From the NCBI RefSeq assembly GCF_041521385.1, contig NZ_CP168006.1, positions 3,659,590-3,723,589 on the forward strand: a stretch of 64,000 bases of DNA. Direction: 5' to 3'. The translations under genes and the position numbers were made by a program. This DNA comes from Alcaligenes faecalis. GTDB lineage: Bacteria > Pseudomonadota > Gammaproteobacteria > Burkholderiales > Burkholderiaceae_B. The notes under the pieces were generated by a model, which was given only the letters and a program-made list of their open reading frames with translations, did no database searches and was not told the DNA's origin. Shown in pieces: positions 32,847 to 36,192 of the stretch (position 1 is the first letter of the stretch; every line of letters starts with the position of its first letter).

Positions 32847-33323
32847 ATGCGTTTGACGACAAAAGGGCGTTTCGCCGTAACCGCGATGATCGATCTTGCG
32901 CTGCGCCAGCAAAGTGGACCGGTGACGCTCGCAGGCATCAGCCAGCGACAGGGTATCTCACTCTCCTATCTTGAACAGTTGTTTGGCAAGTTGCGCCGCC
33001 ATGAACTGGTCGATAGTGTGCGTGGTCCGGGTGGTGGCTATACGCTTGCGCGTCTGGCCCGCCACATTACTGTTGCTGACATTGTGTTTGCGGTCGATGA
33101 GCCCGTTGATGCCACCCAGTGTGGTGGCAAGGGTAATTGCAAGCAGGGCACAAACGGGCAGAAAGGCGAGTGCATGACTCACGAGCTTTGGGCGACGCTT
33201 AGTCGTAAAATGGTCGATTATCTGGACTCTGTCTCGCTACAGGACTTGGTTGATCAGCAACGTCTGCGTCAGCTCAAGTTGGCCGCTCAGGAAGCCGGTC
33301 AGCCAGAAGAATGTACTTTGTAG
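32847..33323 (+). CDS. iscR: IscR-type Rrf2-family Fe-S regulator
   Basis: 158 residues from the ATG of 32847 (AAGGAA upstream; the longer frame has no site). The Rrf2 winged helix is clear (R-L-T-T-K-G-R-F-A-V-T-A-M, S-L-S-Y-L-E-Q-L-F). Cluster ligands Cys92, Cys98, Cys109 and His112 are present, but the spacing between the second and third Cys is 10 residues, whereas E. coli IscR has 5. IscR senses cluster supply and represses its operon. It is followed by iscS after 33 bases. Confidence 0.9.
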   Translation: MRLTTKGRFAVTAMIDLALRQQSGPVTLAGISQRQGISLSYLEQLFGKLRRHELVDSVRGPGGGYTLARLARHITVADIVFAVDEPVDATQCGGKGNCKQGTNGQKGECMTHELWATLSRKMVDYLDSVSLQDLVDQQRLRQLKLAAQEAGQPEECTL

Positions 33324-33356: not shown

Positions 33357-34550
33357 ATGAGTCGCGCTCAGCGTATCTATATGGATTATGCCGCCACCAC
33401 ACCGGTAGACCGGCGTGTGGCCGACAGCATGATTCCCTGGTTGACGGAACGATTTGGCAATCCTGCCTCCAGTAGCCATCCTTATGGGTGGGATGCGGAG
33501 GAAGCCGTGGATCAGGCGCGTCGTCAGGTCGCCTCCCTGGTCGGGGCGGAGCCGCGAGAAATCGTCTGGACTTCCGGTGCTACCGAAGCCATCAATCTGG
33601 CCTTGAAGGGTGCCGCGCAGTTTTATCAGTCCAGGGGCCGCCATATTATTACCGCCCGTACGGAACACAAGGCTGTGTTGGATACCTGTTTGGCCTTGCA
33701 GGACGAGGGGTTTGAAGTCACCTTTCTGGATGTCCTGCCCAGTGGTCTGATTGATCCGCAGGCGTTTGAACAAGCCATTCGTCCTGATACCATCCTGGCC
33801 TCGGTCATGTTGGTGAATAATGAAATTGGCGTGATTCAGGATGTGCAGGCTTTGGGGGCAATGTGTCGTGAGCATAAGGTACTGTTCCATGTGGATGCTG
33901 CCCAGGCCACCGGCAAGGTGGCGATCAATCTGCAGGAATGGCCGGTGGATTTGATGTCCATGTCGGCGCACAAGACCTACGGGCCCAAAGGGATTGGTGC
34001 CTTGTATATCCGTCGCAAACCGGCGGTGCGTCTTAAAGCGCAGATTCATGGTGGGGGGCACGAACGCGGGTTTCGTTCCGGTACGCTGGCTACGCATCAA
34101 ATTGTGGGAATGGGGCGTGCCTTTGAGTTGGCTGGCGCGCACATGGATGAAGAGCACCAGCGCATCACCGCGCTGCGTGATCGTCTGTGGGCGGGCTTGC
34201 AGCAGATTCCGGACTTGTTCCTGAACGGCACCCTGGAACAGCGTGTTCCCCATAACCTGAATATCAGTGTGGATCACATCGAGGGCGAAGCCCTGATGAT
34301 GGCCCTGACGGATCTGGCCGTGTCCAGTGGTTCGGCCTGTACGTCGGCCAGCCTGGAACCGTCCTACGTATTGACGGCCTTGGGTCGCAGCGATCAGTTG
34401 GCGCACAGCTCCTTGCGCTTGAGCCTTGGCCGTTTCACGACCGAGCAGGACATTGATGACACGATTGCGGCCATCCGTCGTGTGGTTGAACAATTGCGGG
34501 CCATCTCTCCCTTGTGGAGCGAGCCTGCTTCGGAGCCGTTCGCACAATGA
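33357..34550 (+). CDS. iscS: Cysteine desulfurase IscS with altered C terminus
   Basis: 397-residue PLP enzyme that takes sulfur from cysteine and passes it to scaffold proteins. The PLP lysine Lys206 ([10 protein letters not shown]) and the persulfide Cys328 (S-S-G-S-A-C-T-S-A) keep the E. coli numbering. After S-P-L-W the chain ends in [10 protein letters not shown]; the E. coli tail with S-I-E-W-A-H-H, part of the IscU-docking surface, is missing. Its stop overlaps the next ATG by 4 bases, so it is coupled to the IscU-like gene. Confidence 0.93.
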
Positions 34551-34930
34551 TATATAGTGACGCTGTCATGGAGCATTTTCTGCACCCGCGTCATGTGGGT
34601 GTCATGAACAGCAGTGATGCTGACGTAGGTACAGGGGAAGCAGGAAGTCACGAAACCGGGGCCTTGATTCGGATCCAGCTCAAGGTATCGGAGCAGGGCC
34701 AGATTCAGGATAGCTGTTTCAAGGCTTATGGCTGTGGCTGTACCATCGCTGCCGCTTCCTATGCGGCGCAATGGCTACAGGATCGCAGTCTGGAGCAAGC
34801 GGCCCGGTTCTCGTCCACGGATGTACAGCAAGCGCTGGAATTGCCGCCGGTCAAAGTGCATTGTGCGTTGTTGGCCCAGGAGGCGGTTCAGGCGGCCATT
34901 GCCTCGGTACAGAACAAAGGCGCGTTTTAG
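34547..34930 (+). CDS. Divergent IscU-like Fe-S scaffold protein
   Basis: 127 residues from the ATG of 34547 that overlaps the iscS stop. It aligns without gaps to E. coli IscU as recalled: M-I-Y-S-D-A-V at the start, Y-G-C-G-C at 61-65, and L-P-P-V-K-V-H-C at 99-106. Cys63 and Cys106 are kept, but the first ligand region (A-C-G-D in IscU) reads E-T-G-A, so Cys37 is Thr and the key Asp39 is Ala. Two new cysteines appear, Cys57 and Cys65. The L-P-P-V-K motif used by HscA is retained although hscA is not in the operon. Cluster binding is therefore likely altered; I give no iscU symbol for that reason. Confidence 0.85.
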
Positions 34931-34983: not shown

Positions 34984-35307
34984 ATGTCTATTTCTCTTAC
35001 TCAGCCCGCCGCAGAACATATCCAGCGTCATTTGAAAAAACGCGGGGGCGGTTTGGGGCTACGTTTGGGTGTACGCCTGACCGGTTGCTCGGGTCTGGCC
35101 TACAAGCTGGATTTTGTTGATGAGCCGGTTGAAGGCGATCAACTGTTTGAAGAGCACGGCGTTAAACTGTTTGTTGATCCGAAAAGCCTGCCCTTTATTG
35201 ATGGCACGCGTCTGGATTATGGCCGTGATGGCCTCAATGAAGGTTTCAAGTTCATCAATCCAAACGAGAAAGCCTCCTGCGGGTGTGGCGAATCGTTTAC
35301 CGTGTAG
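34984..35307 (+). CDS. iscA: IscA A-type Fe-S carrier
   Basis: 107 residues. All three ligands of the HesB/IscA family are present: Cys35 (T-G-C-S-G-L-A-Y) and Cys99/Cys101 (S-C-G-C-G-E-S-F). It carries and delivers Fe-S clusters, mostly 4Fe-4S, to target enzymes. A good AAAGGAAAAG site precedes it. It is the third structural gene of the isc operon; the next gene begins 6 bases after its stop. Confidence 0.93.
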
Positions 35308-35313
35308 GAACTC

Positions 35314-36192
35314 ATGTCATTACGTTTCGGTTTGGCGGCCAATCAATTGCACCATGATTCGGCAGATGCGGCTTTGTTTCAGTGGTTGCGGCGCTCAGCC
35401 AGCGGTATTCGCGAGTTGGAAGTTGAGCTTTATACGGTGGGTCGTACCTGTAATGCCATCGAGCGTTCGGGCCTGCTGGAAGGCTATGGCGGCTTGGTTC
35501 GCTATCCTTATGGTCGTGATGGCGGCTTGATGAAGCTGGTGGCCCGGGTCACTCAAAGCCCGGACGGCACGCCGCCTTTTGATGGTGCCATTTACCTGAT
35601 TGACCCGGTAGACCCTTCCTCCATTTTCCCGGAAGCACTGGCACTCAAGCGCCAATGCATCACGCATGGCCGTCCTTTCATCTCGACTCTGATGGGCGCG
35701 ATTGAATGGATTGAAGTAGAACGTGTCAGTCGTGGCCTGTGGCCCGATTCCAGCTGCAAACGTATTTTTGACTTTCCGAATCAAACCCTGGCCTTGATTG
35801 CGCACGATGCGCTCAAGGAAAAAATGGTTGAGTTCGCTGACAAGCATTTTGATTTGCTGTCCCGTTTCGGCCAACGCGTGGGAACGGGCACGACCAGCCG
35901 CTTGTTGAACGAGCTGGCCTGGTCCAAGGGCTGGCCCAAGGAGACCTCCTGGATTCAATCTTATTTAAGTGGTCCTTTGGGTGGCGATGCGCAAATTGCC
36001 GAGCTGGTGCTGGAAAATCGTTGTCAGCGTGTGATCTTCTTCGAGGACCCGCACGTCGCCCGTCAGCACGAGGCCGACATTCAGTTGCTGGAACGGGCTG
36101 TTCGTGTGGTGGCGGACAAGGCGTCGTGTTTTTCTTCGCCCGAAGTGGCCCATAAATGGGCGCAGGCGGTGATGCGTTTGCCGGTGGATTGA
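35314..36192 (+). CDS. Tandem methylglyoxal-synthase-fold protein
   Basis: 292 residues with two copies of the MgsA-like fold. The C-terminal copy (about 157-285) keeps the catalytic pattern of methylglyoxal synthase: I-A-H-D (His164, Asp165), G-T-G-T-T (190-194), S-G-P-L-G-G-D (Asp225), F-F-E-D-P (Asp245) and Q-H-E-A-D (His252, Asp255). The N-terminal copy (about 5-135) shows the same order, H-H-D-S, Y-T-V-G-R-T, Y-P-Y-G-R-D-G-G, L-I-D-P, but lacks the second His/Asp pair. Methylglyoxal synthase turns dihydroxyacetone phosphate into methylglyoxal; usual enzymes are ~150 residues. The gene is 6 bases after iscA and probably cotranscribed with the isc genes. Confidence 0.8.
   Translation: MSLRFGLAANQLHHDSADAALFQWLRRSASGIRELEVELYTVGRTCNAIERSGLLEGYGGLVRYPYGRDGGLMKLVARVTQSPDGTPPFDGAIYLIDPVDPSSIFPEALALKRQCITHGRPFISTLMGAIEWIEVERVSRGLWPDSSCKRIFDFPNQTLALIAHDALKEKMVEFADKHFDLLSRFGQRVGTGTTSRLLNELAWSKGWPKETSWIQSYLSGPLGGDAQIAELVLENRCQRVIFFEDPHVARQHEADIQLLERAVRVVADKASCFSSPEVAHKWAQAVMRLPVD

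Follow-up and report, generated by a model that had tools for sequence, protein, structure and literature searches.

A degenerate IscU lacking its first cysteine ligand is retained beside IscS in Alcaligenes faecalis and related SUF-bearing bacteria

The isc operon of Alcaligenes faecalis and its IscU protein

The window, by which we mean the whole 64,000-nucleotide stretch of the Alcaligenes faecalis genome that was analyzed, contains an isc operon on its forward strand in the order iscR, iscS, a degenerate iscU and iscA, followed by a methylglyoxal-synthase-like gene. The first gene of the operon, iscR (32847..33323), encodes an Rrf2-family regulator (TIGR02010, 211.8 bits, cut-off 207.55). 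The cysteine desulfurase gene iscS (33357..34550) encodes 397 residues that scored 637.6 bits against NF010611 (cut-off 548) and 632.1 bits against TIGR02006, under the cut-off of 643.2 for that profile; its catalytic cysteine is retained and its C-terminal tail beyond the SPLW motif is diverged and shortened. The degenerate iscU (34547..34930) starts within the end of iscS, as its ATG overlaps the iscS stop codon (ATGA at 34547-34550), and is followed by iscA (34984..35307), which encodes an A-type carrier with its three cysteines retained (TIGR02011, 150.6 bits, at the cut-off of 150.6). This arrangement agrees with the preliminary description of the locus, in which iscU was held to be coupled to iscS and iscA. 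No hscB, hscA or fdx was found after iscA in this operon. The gene that does follow iscA (35314-36192, forward strand) encodes 292 residues, the C-terminal part of which matches methylglyoxal synthase (PRK05234, 96.9 bits, cut-off 84), and profile searches gave no assignment for the first ~155 residues. A relative of this protein is encoded in the fetched isc flanks of 48 of 149 genomes.

Translation of 34547-34930 gives 127 residues and a stop codon. In phmmer searches it gave an ungapped alignment with chains of E. coli IscU, residues 1-124 on 1-124 (2kqk, 1.2e-36; 2l4x, 8.4e-36), and this alignment fixes the residue numbering used here. Relative to E. coli IscU, Cys37 is replaced by Thr, Asp39 by Ala, Arg57 by Cys and Ser65 by Cys, and Cys63, Lys103, His105 and Cys106 are retained; Ser90, Ala107 and Gln111 are also present. 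The gapless alignment, the loss of Cys37 and Asp39, the new cysteines at 57 and 65 and the retained Cys63 and Cys106 had all been proposed from the sequence beforehand and are correct. Close relatives are found in A. faecalis AU14 (97%), A. pakistanensis (94%) and Alcaligenes sp. SORT26 (93%). The protein contains a NifU_N domain (PF01592, 120.1 bits, cut-off 22), and it falls below the curated cut-offs of both the IscU equivalog TIGR01999 (134.5 bits, cut-off 192.4) and the SufU family TIGR01994 (37.8 bits, cut-off 92.5). Changes were present at 40 of the 83 sites that are invariant among the canonical IscUs of our survey. The fold is predicted to be that of IscU: the AlphaFold2 model has a mean pLDDT of 92.6, and its best Foldseek matches are IscU chains bound to IscS or NFS1 (TM 0.95 to 3lvl_A). 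Thus, of the properties by which an IscU may be recognized, the protein has the predicted fold and the gene adjoins iscS and iscA. Among the ligand residues it has Cys63 and Cys106, with Thr and Ala in place of Cys37 and Asp39, and the partners HscA, HscB and ISC ferredoxin were not found in the genome.

The genome is a single contig of 4.15 Mb. In profile searches of it HscA did not exceed its cut-off, ISC ferredoxin had no match, and the best HscB score was 15.5 bits (cut-off 46.75). A SUF locus lies 0.2 Mb outside the window and encodes SufB, a second SufB/D-type match, SufS, a SufU with an intact C-G-D zinc site (T-G-A in the degenerate IscU) and a SufT-like protein, and thus offers an alternative path to clusters. 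A second, canonical IscU is ruled out in this genome, as it has two NifU_N matches and the other one is the SufU-type protein.

Co-occurrence with SUF and repeated loss

We surveyed the window's family with profile searches over 151 genomes in 43 genera, and found matches to IscU in 149, SufB in 63 (62 over the cut-off) and ISC ferredoxin in 95. HscA exceeded its cut-off in 89 of the 151, all of them with the ferredoxin; in the remaining six of the 95, HscA scored lower or was partial. Together with the window, 148 fetched isc regions gave 149 IscUs for comparison. SufB without the ferredoxin was found in 55 genomes, of which 53 had a readable iscU; the other two (G021 and G065, 75% and 82% complete) yielded no iscU. 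Cys37 was kept in none of these 53, versus all 94 readable genomes with the ferredoxin. Among the 87 genomes with the ferredoxin and no SufB, Cys37 and Asp39 were present in 86, the IscU start being missing in the other (G011), which was excluded from site counts, and both residues were present in all eight genomes having SufB and the ferredoxin together. The sole genome with neither SufB nor the ferredoxin (G051, 66% complete, isc at a contig end) kept Cys37 and Asp39. That ISC and SUF are mutually exclusive in bacteria has already been published (PMC10631705).

The 53 degenerate IscUs come from 18 genera and have T, Q, E, L, S, D, N, I, V, A or G at residue 37. Asp39 remains in 10 of them, Cys63 in 43, Lys103 in 47, His105 in 50 and Cys106 in 44, with Cys63 and Cys106 together in 40. 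Their fetched isc flanks contained iscR and iscS in all 53 and iscA in 52, and hscB, hscA and fdx in none. The catalytic cysteine of IscS and the three cluster cysteines of IscR are present in all 53, as are the IscA cysteines in the 52 readable cases. A first ligand that had moved to a nearby position can be ruled out, since none of the 53 proteins has a cysteine within residues 31-44. Among the 61 SufB-bearing genomes with an IscU there was no intermediate, whether one that has fdx and lacks Cys37 or one that lacks fdx and has Cys37, and Cys37 and hscBA-fdx may have been lost in either order.

Within the genus Alcaligenes, Cys37 and Asp39 are absent from all seven sampled genomes, residue 37 being T, L or Q and residue 39 being A, and a sequencing error is therefore unlikely. 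Loss of the new cysteines in close relatives had been named beforehand as evidence that would count against the proposal. Cys65 is present in all seven genomes (7/7), and for Cys57 the objection applies in part, as it is present in six of the seven, with Arg in its place in G044. Beyond the genus, Cys65 without Cys57 was observed in five g13 genomes (L078, L039, L047, L057, L058) and one g10 genome (L041), so Cys65 is not a trait of Alcaligenes alone.

A tree of IscR, IscS, IscA and the neighboring phosphatase from 93 genomes required four changes of fdx state, three of which are forced by supported branches. Cys37 was removed at least three times on well-supported branches in this one family, always together with the loss of hscBA-fdx. 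A single loss inherited by all 53 genomes was rejected by the AU test (p 0.005; 71 rows, tree of the isc-operon genes and the neighboring phosphatase gene). These are trees of the operon, and transfer of the operon between species may be compatible with them. Both states occur in the genera g16 and g28, and the three phylogenetically independent pairs on supported branches were all concordant, although three pairs are too few for significance. One genome (G006, L107) with full ISC, fdx and no SufB was placed within the SUF-bearing part of the tree, and apparently represents the reverse loss, in which SUF was lost instead.

Degenerate IscUs are not confined to the family. In a class-level sample of 281 genomes, IscU was matched at 1e-15 in 155, 130 of them over the cut-off, and we inspected 24 others besides the window genome. 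Ten of the 24, from seven families, have a degenerate IscU (residue 37: R in G334 and G319, S in G310 and G203, D in G388 and G250, N in G153, H in G181, Q in G374 and G290); the remaining sub-cut-off matches were NifU-type, SufU-type, partial, or divergent IscUs with Cys37. As the count covers these 24 genomes, the class sample holds at least ten such cases; another 126 of the 281 genomes had no match at 1e-15, and the 130 over the cut-off were counted by their first match. SufB was present and ISC ferredoxin absent in all ten, whereas 20 canonical controls had the ferredoxin in 19 cases and SufB in one. The fetched 10-18 kb contained iscS in eight of the ten and hscB, hscA or fdx in none. 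Cys106 is replaced in five (G388, G319, G181, G374, G290). In G388 (L264:7814-9436) a single open frame, uninterrupted by a stop codon, runs through iscS and the degenerate iscU. It lies on one contig of a draft assembly and is possibly a natural fusion, and an internal start would also be compatible with it. The tree of these outside genomes has long branches, leaves G388, G334 and others unplaced and omits control G262, which had too little sequence; on this tree the ten may represent independent losses or shared ones. Another genome outside the family (G194, L276), rated 100% complete, has a canonical IscU with Cys37, and neither ISC ferredoxin nor SufB was matched in it.

Purifying selection, site retention and the IscS-facing surface

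None of the 53 degenerate iscU genes has an internal stop. We estimated dN/dS with our own script for the Nei-Gojobori method. For five Alcaligenes genomes (10 pairs) the values were 0.054 for the degenerate iscU, 0.032 for iscS, 0.037 for iscA and 0.007 for iscR. Eight other degenerate groups gave iscU values of 0.072 to 0.302, compared to 0.008 to 0.070 in seven usable canonical groups; group g26 was excluded as saturated, and g4 had no usable iscU pair. This range indicates that constraint on the degenerate iscU is relaxed but strong, and the gene is under purifying selection and not simply decaying. Five of the 53 proteins (G063, G094, G114, G133, G149) have no cysteine at all, and three of these are in pairs with dN/dS of about 0.2. 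A function common to all 53 proteins therefore cannot need a cysteine.

Across the 94 canonical IscUs 83 sites are invariant, and Cys37 is the sole one of these kept in none of the 53. The next most often lost are Asp39 (kept in 19%) and Ser69, Asn90, Met41 and Ser70 (23-26%), and nine sites are kept in all 53 (P14, G18, G33, G38, F58, G62, I67, A68, L97). The least-changed IscUs have three of the 83 sites altered, Cys37 included (C37L, S70T and E96A in G018; M31L, C37D and D39E in G109). A chance figure of 5.7e-6 over four groups was obtained for Cys37 being one of the sites altered in the lineages that have changed least, a value to which we give no weight as it assumes that all sites are equal and all groups independent. 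Four of the eroded residues have a known effect in E. coli IscU, in which exchange of D39, N90, S107 or E111 shifts the protein to its structured state (PMC13423590). They are retained at 0.49, 1% of random sets being as low, and all four are changed in 16 of 53 proteins, including that of the window. This is only suggestive because the set was chosen after looking at the data and includes D39, and because clostridial IscUs with Cys37 also carry Gln111. In one of the 53 proteins the change is N90D, which runs in the opposite direction to the structured-state shift.

The surface that faces IscS has fared better. The contacts of IscU with IscS in 3lvl are Y3, Y11, G38, V40, 59-64 and K103 (PMC2854127). 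Averaged by genus, these residues are retained at 0.85 versus 0.76 for all 83 invariant sites, with 4% of random sets as high, and aromatic residues at 3 and 11, Gly38, Gly62 and Lys or Arg at 103 are all kept in 46 of 53 proteins. Other observations count against a persisting contact. K103 is lost in six of the 53, and IscS sites adjoining the IscU-contact helix are among the least retained in that protein. In the human complex the C-terminal tail of NFS1 wraps around ISCU, and in the human-type complex the loop A34-P35-A36-C37 contacts Trp454 of NFS1 (PMC5668364). This loop is eroded, its four residues being kept in 17, 31, 20 and none of the 53. A Trp within the last 10 residues of IscS was found in all 95 genomes with fdx, versus 39 of 51 readable degenerate genomes; there was none in Alcaligenes and none in the seven readable tails from outside the family. 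Such erosion of the IscS tail could mean that the degenerate IscU docks more weakly.

A possible role as partner of IscS and comparison with known systems

We think that the degenerate IscU is probably a scaffold disarmed for cluster assembly, which owes its retention to a continued ability to dock on IscS. The ISC operon of SUF-bearing bacteria has been reduced repeatedly to iscR-iscS-iscU-iscA. In that process hscB, hscA and fdx were lost, and IscU lost Cys37, usually Asp39, and loop and core residues, its fold and IscS-facing surface persisting. The protein would bind the C-terminal face of IscS, stabilizing it or setting its activity and choice of partners, and IscS would supply sulfur for uses other than clusters, such as tRNA thiolation and cofactors. 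In Alcaligenes, Cys63, Cys65 and Cys106 may additionally receive sulfur, a role that cannot hold generally. Cluster assembly depends on ligands, electrons and release, and of these the first ligand, the dedicated ferredoxin and the chaperones are missing. The fold, the operon position and the surface toward IscS remain, and we therefore read the protein as a partner of IscS that would no longer build clusters.

Three other explanations were weighed. The degenerate IscU could take the persulfide of IscS on Cys106 (or on Cys63 or Cys65) and hand it on without iron, a relay that would fit the frequent retention of Cys63, His105 and Cys106, and the finding of Shi et al. (PMC2854127) that loss of any single IscU cysteine lowers sulfur transfer without abolishing it. 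Such a relay is possible in Alcaligenes and cannot be general, since Cys106 is absent in nine of the 53 proteins and in half of those from outside the family, and five have no cysteine, and we regard it as unlikely. The gene could instead be a relic of the SUF takeover that will eventually be lost, its frame being maintained through the coupled translation of iscS and iscA. The overlap of start and stop codons in the window is as this would predict, and iscU is by far the least retained gene of the operon at the invariant sites (0.68, versus 0.89 for iscS, 0.91 for iscA and 0.99 for iscR, in degenerate genomes). Slow decay may also account for a dN/dS of the degenerate iscU that is generally above that of canonical groups, and for the changes at nearly half of the invariant sites in the window protein. 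It is nevertheless rather improbable, because each degenerate group that was measured has a dN/dS far below 1, all 53 proteins share nine identical sites, and the frame has stayed open, with no internal stops, in 53 of 55 genomes with SufB and no fdx, across deep divergence and with hscB, hscA and fdx all gone.

The preliminary description had proposed that the protein either uses a new ligand set (57, 63, 65 and 106) or has another role. As a working scaffold it could hold a cluster or zinc on these four cysteines, or on 63, 65, 105 and 106, and archaeal IscU variants in which the Asp and the His are replaced do still bind a cluster (PMC13423590). All four cysteines are present in six of the seven sampled Alcaligenes genomes, but these six are the only ones among the 53, which rules out the set as a general rule, and Cys57 also occurs in three of 94 canonical IscUs. 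In the predicted structure residue 57 is in the middle of strand 52-61, and by ordinary strand geometry it would lie far from 63 and 106, although metal binding by 63, 65, 105 and 106 may occur in Alcaligenes. As the window genome lacks the ferredoxin, HscA and HscB and has a full SUF locus, we consider a scaffold with new ligands very improbable. The other half of the proposal, another role, is supported by the loss of Cys37 in all 53 genomes that have SufB and have lost hscBA-fdx, by the cysteine-free proteins and by purifying selection.

Recurrence of this loss across many related bacteria with a different assembly system suggests a second function for the protein, in which it acts as a partner of the sulfur-donor enzyme. 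More tentatively, and with rather less than even confidence, we suggest that this is a general, cysteine-independent role of IscU as a regulatory or stabilizing subunit of IscS, one that the scaffold role would mask in E. coli and in mitochondria and that would be exposed where SUF takes over. The chaperones and ferredoxin would go, with Cys37 the first residue lost and those that tune the switch between structured and disordered states next, leaving a bare partner of IscS that in one case may be fused to it. Cys37 may have been lost for want of further use, or its loss may itself be selected, as loading without unloading would tie up IscS. No description of an IscU that lacks Cys37 and is retained next to IscS turned up in the open-licence literature, although one may exist elsewhere.

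To our knowledge, Cys37 counts as an invariant IscU ligand, and yet some IscUs have no cysteine and are under purifying selection. This natural set of IscUs presumably without a scaffold role could separate the effects of IscU on IscS from its role in clusters, a hard question where both depend on IscU. It also offers a dated order in which parts are lost when Fe-S machinery is replaced, the relative order of Cys37 and hscBA-fdx excepted, and it cautions that a gene annotated as iscU by homology need not encode a working ISC scaffold.

In comparison to known systems, the protein is closest to IscU (TIGR01999; E. coli), with which it shares the fold, length, gapless alignment, position between iscS and iscA, Cys63, Lys103, His105, Cys106 and the LPPVK motif. 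It differs in lacking Cys37 and Asp39, in its score below the cut-off, and in coming from a genome without hscB, hscA or ISC ferredoxin by profile searches. With SufU (TIGR01994), a zinc-dependent sulfurtransferase, it has the NifU_N fold and a desulfurase partner in common; unlike SufU, it lacks the first Cys and the Asp of the zinc site, and the genome has its own, separate SufU adjoining sufS. The best PDB sequence match is E. coli IscU(D39A) (2kqk), which has Ala39 in common with it, and in E. coli IscU the D39A exchange shifts the protein toward the structured state (PMC13423590, Table II). That variant is an engineered single change, whereas the natural protein also lacks Cys37 and carries Ser90, Ala107 and Gln111.
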